NCBI RefSeq assembly: GCF_007827595.1
Contig: NZ_VISR01000004.1
Span: 372,001-436,000, forward strand
Direction: 5' to 3'
Source: Streptomyces sp. BK340
GTDB taxonomy: Bacteria; Actinomycetota; Actinomycetes; Streptomycetales; Streptomycetaceae
DNA: 64,000 nucleotides
Below the pieces are notes generated by a model, which had not been told where the DNA came from, did not search any database, and saw only the letters and a program-made list of their open reading frames with translations. The position numbers and the translations under genes were made by a program. This document shows positions 10,510 to 29,296 of this stretch, piece after piece. Position 1 is the first letter of the stretch; every line of letters starts with the position of its first letter.

Positions 10510-13500
10510 GTGGTGAACACCAGCGGTGGCGAAGCGCACAGCACCGACCCGTCCATGCCCCACGTCCCCCGTTCGCTGCACCAGCCGCAGGGCCTGCGGA
10601 CCATAGCGACCGCATGGCCCTCGGACACACACCGCATACGGATGCGGCTGCTCGACGCCGTGGACGAGGACCGGCGCGATGTCGAGGTCCTGCTGACCGC
10701 GCTCCAGCAGGCGGTGGCCGAGGTGCACGGCCTGGGCGGCATGGTGCATCTACCGGGCGGCGGCATGAGCGGCATCCTCTACCTGGTCGCCGACAGCGGC
10801 CTGCCGGAGTCGATGACCCGGCCCTGGCTGATCATCCCGGTACGAGGCGCGGCCCCGCCCAGCAGGGCCGCCCGCAACGACACCGTCACCTGGCGTTCCG
10901 ACCTGGCCCCGCCCGACCCGGTGCCCGGCCGGGACCCCTCCGCCCTCTGGCCCTCCCGGCTCCCCGCCGGCATCGGTCACCTGGCCGTCCCGATTCCGGG
11001 CGGTGGCCGTCGGCGCGGCGCGCTCTCCGTCCTCTTCGCCCCCGGCGACGAGCCCGGTGCGGCGGAATGCGCGTTTCTGGACGAGGTGGCGGGCTGGATG
11101 TCCGGGAGGCTCGCGTCGTCCGGGATCCTCAGTGCGTCGCCCACCCTGCTGCGCGCCCTGGAGAACGAGCCGGGACCGCGGGAGGCCACCCCCGCGTGGG
11201 ACGTGGAAGGGGCGCCCTGCGTCACGTACACCTGGGACCTGCGCACCGGCGAGCTGACCTCCGACCGGCCGGTCGAGGAGGTGCTGGCCGGGATCGATCC
11301 GAAGGTGATGAGCGGTGGCATCGAGGCGTGGGCGGCGCTGATCCACCCGGACGACCTGCCCGGGGCGGTGGCCGGCTTCGACACGGGCATCCAGCTGCGC
11401 GGCGGCTTCCAGAACGAGTACCGGGTCCGGCGCGAGGACGGCACGTACCTCTGGATCGAGGCCGGTGCCCGGACGATCACGGACCTGGACGGGACGCCGG
11501 TGAAGGTGATCGGCACCCTCCGGGACAGCAGCGAGACGCATGCCGCCGCCGAGTCGGTCGGGCGGGCGCTGCAGCACATGAGCGACGGCTTCGTCTCCCT
11601 GGACGCGGACTGGCGCATCGGCTTTCTCAATCAGGCCGCCGAGCGGTTCCTCGGCGCCGCCGGGGACGTGGCCGGAGACCTGCTCTGGAACATCCCCGCG
11701 GTGGGTGCGGTGCCGGGGCTGGAGCAGCGCTGCCGGGCGACGGCGGCCGAGGGCCGGCCGGCCGGATTCGACATACCGGGGCCGGACGGGATGTCCTGGT
11801 ACCACCTGCGGCTGGTGCCGGTGCCGGAAGGCCTCACGCTCTACATCACCGACACCACCGAGCGCCATCTGCGCGAGGCCGAGCGGGCCGCGGCGGAGCG
11901 GGCGTCGGCCGAGCGGGCGGCCCTGGTGCAGCGGGTCACGCGGGAGCTGGCCGAGGCCGTCACGGCCCAGGACGTGATGGCGGCGACGGCCGACGGCGTG
12001 ATGACAGCCCTCGGGGCCACGGGACTCGTCATGCTCGGCGTGGTCGGCGACCGGCTGAACGTGGTCGGCTCCCGCGGATACGCGGAGCGCTTCACCCGGC
12101 TGCTGGACGGGCGCTGGACCGTGCGGGACACCATGAACCCGGTGGGAGACGCCCTGCACACCCGCACCCCGCTCTGCATCTCCTCCCCGGAGGAGTTCCT
12201 GACGCGTTATCCGGGGACCGAGTCCCTGATCCAGGAGAGCGGCAAGCAGGCCTGGGCCTTTCTCCCGCTGGCGGTGTCGGGGCGCGAGATCGGCGCGGCG
12301 GTGATCTCCTTCGGCCGGCCGCGGGTACTGGACGACGACGAACGAACACTGCTGACCGCGCTCAGCGGACTGATCGCGCAGGCCCTGGAGCGAGCCGGGC
12401 TCTACGACGAGGCGACGACCCGGGCCCGCACCCTCCAGCGCAGCCTGCTGCCACAGGCACTGCCCGAGCTGCCCGAGGTGACGACGGCGGCGCGCTACCA
12501 GCCGGCCAAGCAGGGATCCGACGTCGGCGGCGACTGGTACGACGTGATCCCCCTCTCCGCGGCCCGGGTGGCGCTCGTGATCGGCGACGTCATGGGCCAC
12601 GGCATGGCCGAGGCCGCCACCATGGGCAGGCTCCGGACAGCCGTCCGCACCCTCTCGGAGCTGGAGCTGCCGCCCGACGAGATCCTCGGCCACCTCAACG
12701 ACATCGTCGGCGAACTGGGCAACGACGCCTTCGCGACCTGCCTCTACGGCATCTACGACCCGGTGAGCCGGTGTCTGTCGTACGCCAGCGCCGGTCAGCC
12801 GCCCCCGGCGGTGGCCCACCCCGACGGCACGGTCACCTTCCTGCCCATGACCCCGGACCCGCCGCTCGGGGTGGCCGCTCCGCCCTTCGAGGCACTCGAG
12901 ACCCCACTGCCCGCCGGCAGCCTGCTCGCCCTCTACAGCGACGGCCTGGTCGAGAGCAAGGACAGGGACGTCACCACCGGCATGAACCACCTGGCCGAGC
13001 TCCTCTTCGAGTCCGTGAACGCCATGCCGGACGCACCCTCGGACGCATCCGACCTGGACGCCCTCTGCGCCACCCTCACCTCCGCTCTGCTCCCCGCCCA
13101 CGGCGCGCTGACGGACGACGCCGCCCTGCTGCTGGCCCGCACGCACCCGCTGGACGCCGAGAACGTCGCCGAGTGGCCGTTGCCGGAGGACCCGGTGGCG
13201 GCGGGCCGGGCACGTGAGCTGGTCCGGGCTCAGCTCACCGACTGGGACCTGGCCGACGAGGACCTGCTCATGACCACCGAACTCGTGGTCAGCGAGCTGG
13301 TCGGGAACGTCGTCCGGCACGCCTGCGGCCCCATCCGGCTGCGCATGCTCCGCAGTCGCGCACTGATCTGCGAGGTCTCCGACGCCAGCCTGACCACGCC
13401 GCACATCCGCCACACCTCCGCCACCGACGAGGGCGGCCGCGGCCTGCAGCTCATCTCCGCGCTCTGCCAGCGCTGGGGCACCCGCCACACCCGCACCGGC

Positions 13501-13612: not shown

Positions 13613-14848
13613 CTACGTCCGGCCGTCGGGGGTGGGGTGCCATTCGACCAGGACGATGGTGGCGTCGTCGCGGAGCCGGCCCCGGTGGTGGTCGAGGATG
13701 GTGTGGATCAGGCGCCTCAGCGCCTCGGGGGCGGGCTCCCCGGACGACAGTGAGCGGGCGACGAAGTCGGCCAGGCGTTGCTCACCGAACAGTTCCCCGG
13801 TCTGGGACCGGGCCTCGGTGACGCCGTCGGTGTGGATCAGGACGCGGTCACCGGGTTCCAGCTGGGCCTGGTGAGCGGTGAGCGTGTCGCGGTTGCCGGG
13901 ACCGAGGCCCAGCGGCAGCTGGCTGGGAGCCTCCAGGGCGTGGGGGACGATGTGGCGGCCGCGTATGAGCAGCGGCGGCGGGTGGCCGCAGTTGACCCAG
14001 CTCAGGCTCCCGCTGTCGAGGTCCAGGTCGGCGAAGACTCCGGTGAGTATGCGGTCGGGCAGCCAGTGTTCGAGTTCGGCGTCGACCCGCTCGGCGATGC
14101 CGGTGAGTGTGCCGTCGGCCAGGCGGGCGGCGCGGCAGGTGGCCAGCGCGACCGCGGAACACAGCCCTGAGGCGAGGTCGTGTCCCATGGCGTCGACGAC
14201 GGCCAGGTGCAGCCGGGAGTCGTGCAGGCTGTGGTCGAACGCGTCGCCGCCGATCTCGTACGCGGGCTCCAGGACCGCGGTGGAGGTGACCTGGTGGGTG
14301 CCCAGAGTGCGCGGGGGCAGGAACGCCCAGACCATCTCGGCGGCGATCGTCATCGGCCGCCGCCGTGTGGTCAGGGCGTACAGGTCACTGAACCCGCTCT
14401 TGCCGACCACGATGACCGCGGCGACCGAGGCCAGGATCTCCGCATGGTCGAGCAGCCGGGCGGTCAACCGGTCCGCGGTCACCCGAAGCACGCCGATCCG
14501 CTCCACGCCGTCGATCAGCGGCAGCCAGAGGGTCAGCGCACCGTGCCGTGACAGCTGCACCGATTCCGTTCTGTACGCCCATCCGGCCACGGTGCCCTCG
14601 ATCGGGATCGGCTCCGCCGCCCCGCCGCCCGACATACCGGGACTGGGGGGCAGCGGCACCAGCAGCCTTTGCTGGACGTCGGCCAGAAACAGGAGCGCCG
14701 CGTCCATGCCCAGGGCTTCGGCCGCGGCATCCACGAGCCCGGCCACCTCCAGCGGCGTCGCCTGGTGCGACCGCGTCACCAGGTCTGCGAGCACCTCACC
14801 GAGCACGTCAGGTGCGCTTGGCTCTCCAACGGGAGGCTGTCGAGTCAC
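13613..14848 (-). CDS. SpoIIE/PP2C-type phosphatase with GAF-like sensor
   Basis: A 411-residue cytoplasmic protein. The first ~165 residues look like a GAF-type sensor (LVDAAAEALGMDAALLFLADV...). The rest is a PP2C/SpoIIE phosphatase with EIGGDAFDHS, DAMGHD, HTDGVTEA and RDDATIVL, so the metal-binding aspartates are present. It has no ATPase domain, unlike its convergent neighbour. The start GTG 14848 overlaps the stop of the upstream P450 by four bases (GTGA), implying translational coupling with the ferredoxin-reductase-P450 operon. The much longer frame to 15574 is antisense to the P450. Its role is probably dephosphorylation of an anti-anti-sigma factor in response to a GAF ligand. Confidence 0.9.
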   Translation of the reverse strand: MTRQPPVGEPSAPDVLGEVLADLVTRSHQATPLEVAGLVDAAAEALGMDAALLFLADVQQRLLVPLPPSPGMSGGGAAEPIPIEGTVAGWAYRTESVQLSRHGALTLWLPLIDGVERIGVLRVTADRLTARLLDHAEILASVAAVIVVGKSGFSDLYALTTRRRPMTIAAEMVWAFLPPRTLGTHQVTSTAVLEPAYEIGGDAFDHSLHDSRLHLAVVDAMGHDLASGLCSAVALATCRAARLADGTLTGIAERVDAELEHWLPDRILTGVFADLDLDSGSLSWVNCGHPPPLLIRGRHIVPHALEAPSQLPLGLGPGNRDTLTAHQAQLEPGDRVLIHTDGVTEARSQTGELFGEQRLADFVARSLSSGEPAPEALRRLIHTILDHHRGRLRDDATIVLVEWHPTPDGRT

Positions 14849-22753: not shown

Positions 22754-25393
22754 GTGAGGCACTTTGGCGGCATCGAGTCCGTCGGCCGCCCTGCGCCCGC
22801 GACGGGTGTCGGCCGCAAAGGGCTCAGGAGCAACGCCCTCGGCATGTTCTCCTCGGTGGCCATGGGCCTGGCTTCCGCCGGCCCGGCGTACAGCATCGCC
22901 GCCACGCTGGGCATCATCGTGGCCGGGGTGGGACTGCAGGCCCCGGTCGTCACCATGCTGGCCTTCATCCCGATGCTGCTGGTCGCGTACGCCTTCCGGG
23001 AGCTCAACGCGAGCAACGCCGACTGCGGGACCACTTTCACCTGGGCCACCCGCGCGTTCGGACCGCGCACCGGCTGGATGGGCGGCTGGGGCCTCATCGT
23101 CGCCAACATCGTCGTCATGGTGAACCTGGCCGAGGTCGCCGCTGTCTACGGCTTCCGGCTGCTGGGCCTGGACTCACTGGGGGAGAGCCGGCTGTGGACC
23201 ACGGTGGCCGGCATCGTCTGGATCGTCCTGCTGACCGCGATCTGCTACGTCGGCATCGAGGTCTCGGCGGCCGTCCAGCGCTGGCTGCTGTGCCTGGAAG
23301 TGCTGATGCTGATCCTGTTCGCCGTCGCCGCGCTGGTCAGGGTCTACACCGATCCTCCCGCGACGGCGATCCATGTCTCCGCCTCCTGGTTCAACCCCTT
23401 CGAGGTGTCCTCGACACAGGCCCTGACCTCGGGCGTCCTCGCCGGCGTCTTCATCTACTGGGGCTGGGACACCGCCTTCTCGGTCAACGAGGAGACCGTC
23501 GACAGCGCACACGTCCCCGGGCGCGCCGCGGTCCTGTCCACCGTGCTGCTCCTGGGCATCTACGGCCTGGTGTCCACGTCGTCGCAGGCGTTCGCGGGAG
23601 TCGGCACCACCGGCATCGGGCTGGGCAACCCGAACGACTCGGCCGACGTGTTCTCCGGACTGGGCGATGCCGTCTTCGGGAGCCACGAAACGGGGATCAT
23701 CCTGTCGCGACTGCTGATCCTGATGGTGCTGACCTCGGCGCTGGCCTCCGCCCAGACCACCATCCTGCCCCTGGCCAGGACCGTCTTCTCCATGGCGGTC
23801 CACAAGGCCGTCCCCGCCCGGTTCGCCCGCATCCACCGCAGGTTTCTCACCCCGACCTGGGGGACCATCGGCATGGGAGCGGTCTCGATCGCCCTGCTGA
23901 TCCTGCTGACGTCGTTCAGTCAGAACGTCGTGGCCGACTCGATCGACTCGGTCGGTCTCGCGATCGCGTTCCAGTACGGACTGACCGGCTTCGCCTGCCT
24001 CTGGTACTACCGCAAGATCCTCACCCGCAGTGTCCGGGACATGATCTTCAAGGGCGTGTTCCCGGCGCTCGGCGGGCTGATCATGCTGCTGCTGTTCCTG
24101 TACGCCGCCTTCGGCGTCTACGCCGACCCGCGGTACGGCACGACCAGCGTCGATCTGCCGCTGATCGGACCGACCGGCGGGGTCACGGTCCTGGGCCTGG
24201 GTGCCCTTCTGATCGGTTTCCTGCTGATGCCGTTGGTCACCCGTGGCCACACGGTGGCCCTGAAACTCCAGCGGAACCTGCTCCCGCGCCATCTGCCGGC
24301 GCACACCGCCGTGGACTCGGCGGCCCGCTACCAGCCCGCCGACAGCGGGTCCGGGGTGGGCGGCGACTGGTACGACGTCATCCCGCTGTCGGGCTGCCGG
24401 GTCGGCCTGGTCGTCGGGGACGTGCTGGGTCACGGCCTGCGCGCCGCGGCGACCATGGGGCAGCTGCGCACGGGGGTACGCGTCCTGGCCCGCCTGGACC
24501 TGAGCCCGGACGAACTGCTGTCCCGCCTGGGCGACCTCGCCGAGCAGACCGCGCGTGAGCGCAGGACCGGACACGGTCCCGGCCACCTGAGGCCGCGGGA
24601 CACCACGATCCGGGGCGTGGCCTGCCTGTACGCGGTGTACGACCCCGCTTCGGGCAAGTGCCGGCTGGCGCGGGCCGGGGACTCGGTGCTCGCGGTCGTC
24701 GTACCCCACCCGGGTGTCGTCGAGCGTCCGGAGCTGCCGTCCGGGCCGCCGCTGGGAGTGGGCGGCCCGCCCTACCAGAGCACGGAACTGGAGTTCCCGC
24801 CGGGCAGTGTCGTCACCCTTTTCACGGGTGGCCTCCTCCAGGCGGCCGACGACCGTGCGGCCGGCCTGGCGCAGCTGTCCCGGGTGCTCGCCGGCGACTG
24901 CGGGTCCCTGCAAGGGCTGTGCGACCTGGTGGTGGACACCCTGCTGCCCGGCGCGGTGGACGTCGACGCGACCGTGCTCACGGTCCGCACCCGCATGCTC
25001 GACCAAAACCAGTTCGCCCAGTGGGCACTGGTCTCGGACCCGGCGGCGGTGGCCACCATCCGTTCCGCCGTCGCGAAGCAGCTCGGCGACTGGGGGCTGG
25101 ACGACCTGGCGTTCACCACCGAGCTGATCGTCAGTGAACTGGTCACCAACGCCATCCGCTACGCGGGCGGCGGCCCGATCCAGGTACGCCTGATCCGCGA
25201 CCGGAGCCTGATCTGCGAGGTCTCCGACACCGGCCACACGACGCCCAATCTGAAGCACGCGGAGACCGACGACGAGGGCGGCCGGGGCCTGTTCATCATC
25301 GCCCAGATGACCCACCACTGGGGCACGCGCTACACCCCCACCGGCAAGACGATCTGGACCGAGCAGGACCTGCAGCCGGCGGACGGCCAGTAG
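22754..25393 (+). CDS. Amino-acid permease fused to SpoIIE phosphatase and RsbW-like ATPase
   Basis: One uninterrupted frame encodes 879 residues. Residues 1 to ~495 are a complete APC-family amino-acid permease with about twelve hydrophobic segments (SSVAMGLASAGPAYSIA at the front; YWGWDTAFSVNEET in the middle). A cytoplasmic SpoIIE/PP2C domain follows at once (~498-740; LQRNLLPRHLP, GVGGDWYDV, GDVLGHG), then an RsbW-type ATPase (~750-875; ELIVSELVTN, DDEGGRGL). In the PP2C domain the usual metal-binding Asp of the T-D-G motif is Gly (LFTGGLL, residue 692), so phosphatase activity is doubtful. The ATPase motifs look intact. The start GTG 22754 is the best fit to the permease N-terminus but has a weak ribosome binding site. 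A likely role is a membrane sensor coupling amino-acid transport to an anti-sigma-type kinase. Confidence 0.88.
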   Translation: MRHFGGIESVGRPAPATGVGRKGLRSNALGMFSSVAMGLASAGPAYSIAATLGIIVAGVGLQAPVVTMLAFIPMLLVAYAFRELNASNADCGTTFTWATRAFGPRTGWMGGWGLIVANIVVMVNLAEVAAVYGFRLLGLDSLGESRLWTTVAGIVWIVLLTAICYVGIEVSAAVQRWLLCLEVLMLILFAVAALVRVYTDPPATAIHVSASWFNPFEVSSTQALTSGVLAGVFIYWGWDTAFSVNEETVDSAHVPGRAAVLSTVLLLGIYGLVSTSSQAFAGVGTTGIGLGNPNDSADVFSGLGDAVFGSHETGIILSRLLILMVLTSALASAQTTILPLARTVFSMAVHKAVPARFARIHRRFLTPTWGTIGMGAVSIALLILLTSFSQNVVADSIDSVGLAIAFQYGLTGFACLWYYRKILTRSVRDMIFKGVFPALGGLIMLLLFLYAAFGVYADPRYGTTSVDLPLIGPTGGVTVLGLGALLIGFLLMPLVTRGHTVALKLQRNLLPRHLPAHTAVDSAARYQPADSGSGVGGDWYDVIPLSGCRVGLVVGDVLGHGLRAAATMGQLRTGVRVLARLDLSPDELLSRLGDLAEQTARERRTGHGPGHLRPRDTTIRGVACLYAVYDPASGKCRLARAGDSVLAVVVPHPGVVERPELPSGPPLGVGGPPYQSTELEFPPGSVVTLFTGGLLQAADDRAAGLAQLSRVLAGDCGSLQGLCDLVVDTLLPGAVDVDATVLTVRTRMLDQNQFAQWALVSDPAAVATIRSAVAKQLGDWGLDDLAFTTELIVSELVTNAIRYAGGGPIQVRLIRDRSLICEVSDTGHTTPNLKHAETDDEGGRGLFIIAQMTHHWGTRYTPTGKTIWTEQDLQPADGQ

Positions 25394-25535: not shown

Positions 25536-26537
25536 ATGGCCGACGACAGGGCCGAACGCATAGCGGAGTTCATCAGGCCTCTGCGGGTCGAGCCCGGCAG
25601 GAAGGTGCAGCTGGCGGACGACTTCGACCCCGGCTACAAGGCGGGCATCCGGAAGAAGAAGGAGGGCGTCGAGCTGCTCCGCGTCGGCGTCGAGCTGCTC
25701 GCCGACTACCAGCGGCGGCTGGCGGCCCAGGACACCTATGGAGTGCTGGTGTGCCTGCAGGCGCTGGACGCAGGCGGCAAGGACGGGACGATCCGCCATG
25801 TGATGAGCGGCGTCAATCCGCAGGGGGTGCGGGTGTCCAGCTTCAAGGTGCCCTCGGCCGAGGAGCTCGATCACAACTATCTGTGGCGCTACACCTGCCG
25901 GCTGCCGGGGCGCGGCGAGATCGGCATCTTCAACCGGTCCCACTACGAGGAGGTCCTGGTCGTACGGGTGCACCCGGAGAACCTCGACCGGCAGCGGCTG
26001 CCGGACTCGGTGCGCGGCCCGGACGTGTGGGACCGGCGGTACCGGGAGATCAACGACTGGGAGCGCCATCTGACCGACAACGGGTTCAAGATCGTGAAGC
26101 TGTTCCTGAACATGTCGAAGGAGGAGCAGCGGATCCGCTTCCTCAAGCGCATCGACGTTCCCGAGCGCAACTGGAAGTTCTCGCCCGCCGACGTGCGGGA
26201 GCGGGCCCGGTGGGACGACTACCAGCGCGCCTTCTCGCAGATGCTGTCCGCCACCAGCACGGAATGGGCGCCCTGGTACGTCGTACCTGCCGATCGCAAG
26301 TGGTTCGCGCGTGTCTGCGCGGCCGCGGTGGTGGCGCACACACTGATCGAGATCGATCCCCAGTACCCGCAGGTCAGTGACGAGACCCGGCGCGGGCTGG
26401 CCGAGGTGAGGCGGGAGCTGGAACGTGAGGCGCCCAAGGGCGCGGCCCCCGACCCGTACGCCGCATCGGTTTCCGAAGGCGAATCCGGCAACGGGAAGCG
26501 CGGCAGGAAGGGCAAGCACTCCGGCGGGAGCGGCTGA
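25536..26537 (+). CDS. ppk2: Polyphosphate kinase 2 family protein
   Basis: A 333-residue cytoplasmic PPK2-family enzyme. Such enzymes move phosphate between inorganic polyphosphate and nucleotides. It has the Walker A-like DAGGKDG (near residue 79), FNRSHYEEVLVVRVHP (near 132, Walker B region) and the lid region with VPERNWKFSPADVRERARWDDY. Its single-domain length suggests the class that makes ADP or ATP from polyphosphate, but class cannot be fixed by eye. The C-terminal ~40 residues are a charged glycine/lysine-rich tail. The start ATG 25536 follows a GGAAGGCGGGCGGA stretch. It lies 41 bases upstream of the P-type ATPase gene and the two are probably co-transcribed, so polyphosphate-derived ATP and ion transport may be linked. 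Confidence 0.92.
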   Translation: MADDRAERIAEFIRPLRVEPGRKVQLADDFDPGYKAGIRKKKEGVELLRVGVELLADYQRRLAAQDTYGVLVCLQALDAGGKDGTIRHVMSGVNPQGVRVSSFKVPSAEELDHNYLWRYTCRLPGRGEIGIFNRSHYEEVLVVRVHPENLDRQRLPDSVRGPDVWDRRYREINDWERHLTDNGFKIVKLFLNMSKEEQRIRFLKRIDVPERNWKFSPADVRERARWDDYQRAFSQMLSATSTEWAPWYVVPADRKWFARVCAAAVVAHTLIEIDPQYPQVSDETRRGLAEVRRELEREAPKGAAPDPYAASVSEGESGNGKRGRKGKHSGGSG

Positions 26538-26578: not shown

Positions 26579-29296
26579 ATGACCGCGCAGACGGACGCCC
26601 CGCACGAGGGGACGACGGACGACCGGGCCTGGTACGCGCGCTCCGCGGAGGAGGTCGCCGCCGGGTTCGAGGTGGATCCGGCCGTGGGACTCTCCTCGGC
26701 GAGGGCCGCGGAGCTGCTGCGCACGAACGGCCCCAACGCGCTGCCGGAGGAGAAGGCCCTGCCGGGCTGGCGCCGCTACCTGGCCCAGTACCGCAGCTAC
26801 ATGCAGCTGGTCCTGGTCGCCGCCGCCGTGGTGTCGTTCCTGATCGCGCAGTGGAGCACGGGCATCCTGCTGGTCGTGCTGACGGTCCTCAACGCGGTCG
26901 TCGGCATGCGGCAGGAGGGCAAGGCGGAGAGCGCCATGAACGCGCTCAAGTCGATGCTGAAGGCGACCGCTCGCGTGCGCCGGGACGGGACCGAGTCCGA
27001 GATCCCGGCCGAGGAAGTGGTCGTCGGCGACGTCGTCCTCCTCACCGCCGGGAACGAGGTCCCCGCCGACGGCCGGATCATCGCGACCAGCGCCCTGCAG
27101 ATCGACGAGTCGGCGCTGACGGGCGAGAGCGTGCCCGCCGCCAAGGACGCGGCGACCCTGGCCGACGGCGACCTGGGCCCCGGGGACCGGACCAACATGG
27201 CGTTCATGAACACGCCGGTCACGCACGGCAGCGCGACGCTGATCGTCACGGCCACGGGCGCCGGCACCGAACTCGGCCGCATCTCCGGGATGCTGTCGGC
27301 GACGCCCCGCGAGGCCTCCCCACTGGACCTGGAGCTCAACCGGCTCACCCTGTGGATCACGGGGGCGGCCGGACTGACGATGATCGTGATGTTCGTCCTG
27401 GGACGCAGCCGCGGCCAGGCGTGGGACGCGCTGTTCGTGAGCGCCGTCTCGCTGGCCATCGCCGCCATCCCGGAGGCCCTGCCCACGGTGACCCAGACGA
27501 TCCTGTCGATCGGCGGGGTGGACCTGGCCCGGCGCCAGGCGATCGTGAAGGACCTGCCGTCGGTGCAGTCGCTGGGGTTCACCTCGGCGATCAACTCCGA
27601 CAAGACCGGCACGCTCACCATGAACCAGATGACCGTCGTGGAGGTCATCGATCCCGGCGACCGCTACACCGTCTCCGGCACCGGTTACGGCCTGGAGGGC
27701 AAGGTCCATCACGCCGTCGGCAGCACGCCCGGCATCGAGGACGCGATCCTGCCCTACGTGGTCGCCAGCGACGCGGGGCTCGTGGACGGCAAGGTCGTCG
27801 GCGACCCCACCGAGGGCGCCCTGCTGGTGCTCGGCCACAAAGCCGGGCTGGACATCGACGCCACCCGGGAGCGGCTGCCCCGGCTGGCCACGCTGCCGTT
27901 CGACCCGTCGTACAAGCTGATGGCCACCTTCCACCCGGCCACGGACGCGGCCGGCCGGCCGGTCGTGCGGTGCTTCGTGAAGGGGGCGGCGCCCGCGGTC
28001 ATGGCCCGGGCCGCCACCGCGCTGCGCGACGGTACGACCGTCCCCTGGGACGCGGAGCTGCGCGAGCGGGCCCAGACACACGTCCGGCGCATGGGCGGCG
28101 AGGGCCTGCGGGTGATGGCCGCCGCGCGCCGCGACCTCGACCCGGCCGCCTTCGATCCGGACGGGGACCTGCTCGCCCACGTCACCGACCTGCAGATGAC
28201 GAGCCTGGTCGGCATGGTCGACCCGCCCCGCCCGGAGTCGCGGGCCGCCGTTGCCGACGCGCAGGCCGCGCACATCCGGGTGCGGATGGTGACCGGCGAC
28301 GACGTCGTCACGGGCGCCGCCATCGCCCGGCAGCTGGGCATCGAGGGCGAGGCGCTCCTCGGCGCCGAGTTCGCCGCGCTGCCGGAGAGCGAACGGCTCG
28401 CCCGGATCGACGACATCGGGGTGGTCGGCCGCGTCGCCCCCGAACACAAGGTGCTGCTCGCCGACACGCTCAAGAAGAAGGGCGACGTGGTGGCCATGAC
28501 CGGGGACGGCGTCAACGACGCCCCGGCCATCAAGGCGGCCGACATCGGCATCGCCATGGGCTCCGGCACCGAGGTCGCCAAGAACGCCGGGCGGATGGTG
28601 CTGTCCGACGACAACTTCGCGACGATCGTCTTCGCCGTCGAGCAGGGCCGCAAGATCTACGACAACCTCACGAAGTACATCCGCTTCGTCCTCGTGCTCC
28701 TCGTGGTGTTCGTCCTGACCTTCCTCGGCGCGACCCTGTTCGACATCGCGGCGGGCGAACCCTTCACCCCGGCCCAGGTGCTGTGGATCCACTTCTTCGT
28801 CAACGCGGCCTTCGGCTTCGCGCTCGGCTTCGACCGGCAGAGCCCGGGACTGATGGAGCGCAGACCGCGTCCACGCGGTGAACCCGTGCTGACCAGGGGA
28901 GTGATGGTCACGGTCGGGCTGTCCGGGCTGGTGATCACCATCAGTCTGCTCGCCCTGATCAAGCTCGGCGAGTCGCACTACGGCAGCACCGCCGTCGGCC
29001 AGTCCATCGCCTTCACGTCCTTCGCGCTCTGCCTGATCGTGGCCGCGCTCGAATGCCGCAGCGAGACGGCGACCGTCCTGACCACCGCCAGCTTCGACAG
29101 CAAGCAGATGAACTGGGCGATGCTCGTGGAGTTCGCCCTCGCGGTGCTGGTCACGCAGATGGACGGGCTCCGCCGGCTGCTGGGCACGACACAGATCAAC
29201 GTGCGGCAGTTCGGCTGGGCGCTGGTGCCGGCGCTGGTGCTGCTCGGGCTGTGGGAGCTCGGCAAGCTCGTCGCCAGGCGGGCCGCAAGGACGTGA
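26579..29296 (+). CDS. Cation-transporting P-type ATPase (type II, Ca2+-like)
   Basis: A 905-residue membrane pump. In order it has an N-terminal cation-ATPase domain, helices 1-2, the actuator domain with LTGES (near residue 180), helices 3-4 with IPEALPTV, the phosphorylation site SDKTGTLT (Asp near 340), the nucleotide-binding domain with a KGAAP motif, the hinge TGDGVNDAPA (near 640) and a C-terminal group of six helices. Layout and motifs match type II pumps for Ca2+, Mn2+ or Na+/K+. The IPEALP pocket favours divalent cations, but specificity is an inference. The start ATG 26579 has GAGAGGAGG upstream. It ends 10 bases before the SulP gene. Confidence 0.95.
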   Translation: MTAQTDAPHEGTTDDRAWYARSAEEVAAGFEVDPAVGLSSARAAELLRTNGPNALPEEKALPGWRRYLAQYRSYMQLVLVAAAVVSFLIAQWSTGILLVVLTVLNAVVGMRQEGKAESAMNALKSMLKATARVRRDGTESEIPAEEVVVGDVVLLTAGNEVPADGRIIATSALQIDESALTGESVPAAKDAATLADGDLGPGDRTNMAFMNTPVTHGSATLIVTATGAGTELGRISGMLSATPREASPLDLELNRLTLWITGAAGLTMIVMFVLGRSRGQAWDALFVSAVSLAIAAIPEALPTVTQTILSIGGVDLARRQAIVKDLPSVQSLGFTSAINSDKTGTLTMNQMTVVEVIDPGDRYTVSGTGYGLEGKVHHAVGSTPGIEDAILPYVVASDAGLVDGKVVGDPTEGALLVLGHKAGLDIDATRERLPRLATLPFDPSYKLMATFHPATDAAGRPVVRCFVKGAAPAVMARAATALRDGTTVPWDAELRERAQTHVRRMGGEGLRVMAAARRDLDPAAFDPDGDLLAHVTDLQMTSLVGMVDPPRPESRAAVADAQAAHIRVRMVTGDDVVTGAAIARQLGIEGEALLGAEFAALPESERLARIDDIGVVGRVAPEHKVLLADTLKKKGDVVAMTGDGVNDAPAIKAADIGIAMGSGTEVAKNAGRMVLSDDNFATIVFAVEQGRKIYDNLTKYIRFVLVLLVVFVLTFLGATLFDIAAGEPFTPAQVLWIHFFVNAAFGFALGFDRQSPGLMERRPRPRGEPVLTRGVMVTVGLSGLVITISLLALIKLGESHYGSTAVGQSIAFTSFALCLIVAALECRSETATVLTTASFDSKQMNWAMLVEFALAVLVTQMDGLRRLLGTTQINVRQFGWALVPALVLLGLWELGKLVARRAART

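Follow-up and report, generated by a model that had tools for sequence, protein, structure and literature searches.

A permease–PP2C–ATPase fusion protein conserved in Streptomycetaceae: a candidate amino-acid transceptor with a probably inactive phosphatase domain

The window analyzed here is a 64,000-nucleotide stretch of the Streptomyces sp. BK340 genome (contig NZ_VISR01000004.1, positions 372,001 to 436,000), in which one gene encodes an 879-residue protein composed of an amino-acid permease, a SpoIIE/PP2C domain and an RsbW-type ATPase (Table 1). The frame is open throughout, its last sense codon ending at position 25390 and being followed directly by the stop codon. In the Pfam analysis of the 879-residue protein, AA_permease_2 was matched at residues 29–460 (3.8e-29, 102.3 bits against a cut-off of 27), SpoIIE at 4.6e-38 (131.5 bits, cut-off 25) and HATPase_c_2 at 1.4e-15 (57.8 bits, cut-off 27.4). 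A GGDW motif is located at residues 536–539, just ahead of the SpoIIE match. These matches and the open frame bear out the first-pass annotation, which had described the three parts as joined in frame.

Table 1. Features of the permease–PP2C–ATPase gene and its leader, in window coordinates.
Feature	Position	Strand	Basis
Whole gene, 879 aa, GTG start	22754..25393 (including stop)	+	Open frame, Pfam domains, orthologues
Conserved non-coding leader (GCTGTTGCGGAGGG ... GTTGGAATCAA) adjoining the start codon	22715..22753	+	Orthologue alignment
APC/SLC7-type permease, residues 22–492, helices 1–12, broken TM1 and TM6	22817..24229	+	Pfam, profile match, model, fold search
Single predicted helix, residues 476–509, TM12 into phosphatase linker	24179..24280	+	Permease-plus-linker model
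Seam, residues 493–496, T-R-(E/G)-H of the PP2C linker in place of the permease tail	24230..24241	+	Alignments
SpoIIE/PP2C domain, residues 549–746	24398..24991	+	Pfam
Residue 692, Gly where SpoIIE has metal ligand D746	24827..24829	+	Alignment to SpoIIE
Residue 737, Val where SpoIIE has metal ligand D795	24962..24964	+	Alignment to SpoIIE
RsbW/SpoIIAB-type GHKL ATPase, residues 761–868, N/G1/G2 box residues present	25034..25357	+	Pfam, alignment

Many of the 48 orthologue rows share the leader before the start codon but differ in it by insertions and deletions whose lengths are no multiples of three, and this combination of conservation and non-triplet changes supports the GTG start. The leader is AT-richer, with GTTGGAATCAA placed immediately 5' of the GTG in many orthologues, and it is possible that it acts as a promoter or regulatory element. 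Downstream, the frames at 25536–26537 and 26579–29296 presumably encode look-alikes of a PPK2-type polyphosphate kinase and of a cation P-type ATPase, respectively. Among the loci compared, the neighboring genes were shared with L046 only. More generally, neighborhoods varied, and comparison of the window with 27 named fused loci revealed no conserved neighbor or partner gene, so that no sigma factor, STAS protein or substrate pathway can be named from the gene context.

The fused gene was detected near full length and without internal stops at 31 places in 28 of 392 Streptomyces genomes, the window's own included, with proteins 66–86% identical to the window protein; an earlier draw of Streptomyces genomes had contained it in 9 of 150. 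In the family sample, it was present in 12 of 150 genomes, belonging to 3 of 17 genera. In the phylum sample (396 genomes), the only full-length match among the top two candidates of each genome was that of the window's own genome, and the other matches were stand-alone permeases or C-terminal relatives. As few candidates were scored per genome (two in the genus search also), these counts are lower bounds. Among the best 80 named loci, 27 were fused (by record title, 23 Streptomyces, two Kitasatospora, one Streptantibioticus and one Streptosporangium); L084, which is masked, may be a further case. Sixty plasmid records matched, none of them over 80% of the query. In total, 55 fused sequences were gathered, from which seven near-copies were removed to give 48, and a further five identical sequences to give 43.

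The homologues called for by the first-pass annotation, with the same three-domain order, are thus found in the genus and in the family. A frame or assembly error near the junction, which that annotation had named among the results that would overturn it, is already refuted and its probability is practically nil: at the 11 loci of the family sample besides the window's own, the frame reads through the seam, and the same fusion occurs in independent assemblies, including single-contig ones (G040, G255, G308, and G388) and others made up of two or three contigs (G117 and G243). Chance and assembly error are therefore excluded as the source of the fusion.

Three single cases from these searches can be mentioned. 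G308 carries two equal-scoring fused copies on a single contig of 10.3 Mb, one near each end (C1:120828-123458, minus strand, and 10201027-10203657, plus strand), placed as in a terminal inverted repeat. The fused protein of L071, from the record titled Streptosporangium nondiastaticum, groups inside the Streptomyces rows in both trees, and the name or the placement of this record may thus be off. Finally, G410 was suspected from a long frame to carry a fused protein, but this was ruled out on checking.

The permease half is complete and, as had been proposed from the sequence, lacks only the short tail of its stand-alone relatives. The model of the permease plus linker (pLDDT 81.9, pTM 0.82) displayed a 12-helix LeuT-like fold, with breaks in TM1 near residue 43 and in TM6 near residues 236–237, that is, a complete APC fold. 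In fold alignments with VIA-align, Z scores were obtained with y+LAT1 (41.2 over 432 residues), AdiC (40.7), ApcT (37.6), and GkApcT (34.5), at only 14–20% identity; these proteins share the permease fold but not the cytoplasmic enzyme. No solved relative was found by the permease sequence alone or by a narrow profile; a wider profile matched CAT4 at 1.2e-10. From the permease family, the substrates are likely to be amino acids or related amines. All 43 fused proteins retain the TM6 residues F233 and D239, while Y270 is retained in 42. Mapped through the TM6 motif in the CAT4 alignment, F233 and D239 appear to correspond to Phe231 and Asp237, the gate residues of GkApcT (PMC5803215).

Position 118 in TM3 behaves otherwise: all 26 stand-alone relatives have Asp there, but 21 of the 43 fused proteins, among them the window protein, have Asn, and transport may thus be altered or lost. 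In addition, 212 columns are invariant among the stand-alone permeases, and only 153 of these reach at least 95% conservation among the fused proteins. Together, the two findings would fit a permease that has turned from transporter into sensor, reporting binding while no longer moving its substrate. We consider such a pure receptor unlikely in view of the retention of F233, D239, and Y270 and of two observations on genome content. In one related genus, 9 of 70 genomes carried the fused gene, 29 a stand-alone permease and one both (hypergeometric P 0.048, kinship ignored); this scarcity of shared genomes weakly hints that the fused copy can replace the transporter and may still transport. No other member above 32% identity was found in the window's genome. 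We prefer the reading of the permease as part of an amino-acid transceptor, as set out below.

The fusion has a single origin. In the permease tree, the 53 fused rows group as a single clade (SH-aLRT 100), nested among the stand-alone permeases of the family. In the tree of the C-terminal halves, the 48 fused rows included likewise stand together, apart from 18 relatives of the PAS-GAF-SpoIIE-HATPase type (support 100/99). The latter proteins of Streptomyces are about 55–62% identical to the C-terminal half and carry the same linker, but differ in having a PAS/GAF sensor and no transporter. These 18 controls were chosen by similarity at the genus level; among the five scanned with Pfam, L028 alone had GAF above its cut-off. 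The sequence across the seam is ...VLMLIQWAVQGSWFR... in stand-alone permeases, ...VLMLVVTREHTAALRLQRSLLP in fused proteins and ...ARRFTREHTAALTLQRSLLP in PAS-GAF-type proteins, the fused form retaining the linker TREHTAALxLQRxLLP of its PAS-GAF parents. These sequences indicate that a permease replaced the sensor of a PAS-GAF-PP2C-ATPase protein precisely at the onset of the linker helix. The helix that runs through the seam in the permease-plus-linker model loses confidence towards its end, and in the full-length model (mean pLDDT 55.6) the helix at residues 476–507 was of low confidence; this poor model is no test of coupling.

Since the direction of signaling is not set by domain order alone, the ATPase/PP2C part could instead sense the cytoplasmic state and gate the transporter, the product being regulated uptake; cytoplasmic domains regulate other APC-fold transporters, and KimA with c-di-AMP was among the fold matches. 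Such inside-out control seems quite unlikely, as the C-terminal half belongs to a large sensor-led PP2C-ATPase family whose members sense through the N-terminal part.

We also considered whether a pre-fusion link between the two halves could be found in gene order. In the 40 neighborhoods fetched out of the 46 stand-alone rows of the family search, a PP2C gene was located directly downstream on the same strand in five cases (L188, L193, L194, L206, and L210), all from two genera, and two more loci had a PP2C gene 5–6 kb upstream. This adjacency, a weak lead as to a pre-fusion link, may be due to chance given the density of such genes: the window's own genome (10.3 Mb) contains 80 SpoIIE places, 77 of them over the cut-off.

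In SpoIIE, Mn1 is bound by D628, D746, and D795, and the second metal through D610 and D628 (PMC3517971). Alignment of the family PP2C profile to SpoIIE placed D610, D628, D746, and D795 at residues 538, 556, 692, and 737, respectively; the SpoIIE chain numbering was inferred, and the 692/737 part aligns better than the 538/556 part, which is weak on its own. Residue 738 was rejected as the fourth metal ligand, as this alignment puts the ligand at 737. The window protein has D, D, G, and V at the four positions, so that two of the three Mn1 carboxylates are missing, a point absent from the first-pass annotation. With Gly and Val in place of D746 and D795, the domain is probably inactive as a phosphatase and would retain the PP2C fold only, although D736, present in 40 of the 43 fused proteins, could perhaps substitute for residue 737.

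All four metal-binding Asp residues were found in 8 of the 43 fused proteins, including those of Streptantibioticus and one Kitasatospora, compared with 26 of 28 relatives (16 of 18 of the PAS-GAF type and 10 of 10 led by an SSF/PutP transporter), a comparison that takes no account of kinship. On the tree, none of the 28 rows in the window's clade retains Asp737, and the position changed a second time in L143 (two changes overall); this pattern fits a single loss in the ancestor of that clade. After this loss, position 692 changed at least nine times, and in the other fused clade Asp556 was lost in seven rows through at least three changes. Permease N118 and the loss at 692 occurred together in 13 rows, one without the other in eight and five, and neither in 17; independent pairs on the tree showed no link between them, whether as a coupled or as an ordered loss. 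The ratio of PP2C to ATPase divergence was 1.48 in fused proteins, 1.41 in the SSF-led group and 1.13 in the PAS-GAF type, and is no evidence of decay, because the SSF-led group, with intact sites, is similarly high.

The ATPase, on the other hand, kept E795, N799, D825, G827, and G845 in 43 of 43 fused proteins, and we take N799, D825, and G845 to be the N, G1, and G2 box residues. Median NG86 dN/dS values, calculated from the closer pairs (323–324 of 903), were 0.37 for the permease, 0.45 for the linker, 0.44 for PP2C, and 0.28 for the ATPase. The three-domain fusion is thus conserved and under purifying selection. A chance fusion that merely anchors the module to the membrane, or a module in decay, would explain the ongoing loss of metal ligands and the patchy carriage (28 of 392 genomes), but is very unlikely in the face of dN/dS below 1 in all parts and lowest in the ATPase, of the five ATPase residues kept throughout, and of one old clade that spans three genera. 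The RsbW-type ATPase is the likely output of the window protein; as the PP2C domain lost its Mn1 ligands and is probably a pseudophosphatase, the ATPase would set the output in this lineage.

The first-pass annotation had suggested a transceptor in which amino-acid binding or transport would switch the kinase and so link nutrient flux to a sigma factor. The transceptor idea fits the anatomy of the protein, but the phosphatase is probably not active, for the reason given above. We hold as evenly poised the revised reading of an amino-acid transceptor that steers a membrane-bound anti-sigma kinase, in which sensing, helix coupling, kinase output, and sigma target are all inferred. The SLC7-like permease would act as the sensor: when an amino acid or related amine occupies it or makes it cycle, TM12 would shift. 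This helix would extend unbroken into the linker, the element that in PAS-GAF-PP2C-ATPase proteins relays the signal to the PP2C switch. Published work on RsbU argues that linkers of this kind pass on signals to PP2C dimers from sensors that can be exchanged (PMC12143880). In the lineage of the window protein, the PP2C domain without Mn1 ligands would probably serve as a relay or dimerization part, and the membrane-bound ATPase would phosphorylate a STAS anti-anti-sigma factor and/or hold a sigma factor. Members that branch early and keep intact sites would work in both directions, as kinase and as phosphatase.

A second transporter-led protein, whose module was built separately, is encoded on contig 3 of the same genome (G000:C3:234589-238203, minus strand; L245/L282). 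Its 1205 residues comprise SSF(PutP)-PAS-GAF-SpoIIE-HATPase, the SSF part scoring 561.7 against the cut-off of 515.5 of the PutP model TIGR02121, and the protein was found full length in 10 of 101 Streptomyces genomes. Like the permease-led proteins, these PutP-led proteins (n = 10, three of which were scanned with Pfam) have a complete transporter at the head of a PP2C-ATPase module in one chain. They differ in that the transporter belongs to the sodium/proline symporter family, PAS and GAF domains lie in between, where the permease of the window protein directly abuts the linker, and the metal-binding Asp residues are intact in 10 of 10. An SSS + GAF + PP2C_SIG + HATPase_c layout in Actinobacteria is also mentioned in a review (PMC7918813). 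The view that the window protein has no known counterpart must thus be narrowed: transporter-led PP2C-ATPase proteins are already known, though not known to have been studied, and the permease-led form is new, as no mention of a permease-SpoIIE fusion was found in the open-access literature searched.

Precedents for a transporter and a signaling enzyme in one polypeptide are CbrA, an SLC5-STAC-PAS-histidine kinase (PMC13022988), and the Amt-histidine kinase of Kuenenia (PMC5764959). Their output is a two-component histidine kinase, unlike the PP2C plus GHKL ATPase of the window protein, in whose Pfam table no HisKA family was found. Among proteins of solved structure, the one most closely related to the PP2C-ATPase half is Rv1364c, in its solved part 3ke6 (phmmer 5.3e-11; PP2C profile 9.2e-27). 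The aligned chain keeps the Asp residues of GGDW, GDV, TDG, and DD, unlike the window protein, and Rv1364c is described as PAS-PP2C-ATPase-STAS (PMC12143880), with no transporter lead.

A broader proposal is more tentative, and we lean somewhat against it: that the fused proteins are a family of amino-acid transceptors with a pseudophosphatase relay, in which the transporter state directly sets an anti-sigma kinase, a design that, with the PutP-led proteins, would have been built at least twice in Streptomycetes. Should this be so, a sigma-factor switch would be driven by nutrient transport, with no two-component system and no soluble ligand involved, and amino-acid supply would join the inputs to the many sigma-factor circuits of soil bacteria that produce antibiotics. 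Within the family, the phosphatase ranges from intact to eroded ahead of an unchanged kinase, a natural series that, if the proposal holds, would allow testing of sensor control of a partner-switching module and of PP2C as a pure relay.

Other PP2C domains of the same genome were also surveyed. In 50 stretches around PP2C places (of the 80), 52 frames were considered, one of which is probably a spurious match; the TDG text pattern occurred in 37 and was lacking in 14, a tally that is not a count of intact sites. Two further SpoIIE/PP2C domains are present in the window itself, at 12562–13143 (plus strand) and 13637–14221 (minus strand), in frames of 1043 and 821 residues, respectively.
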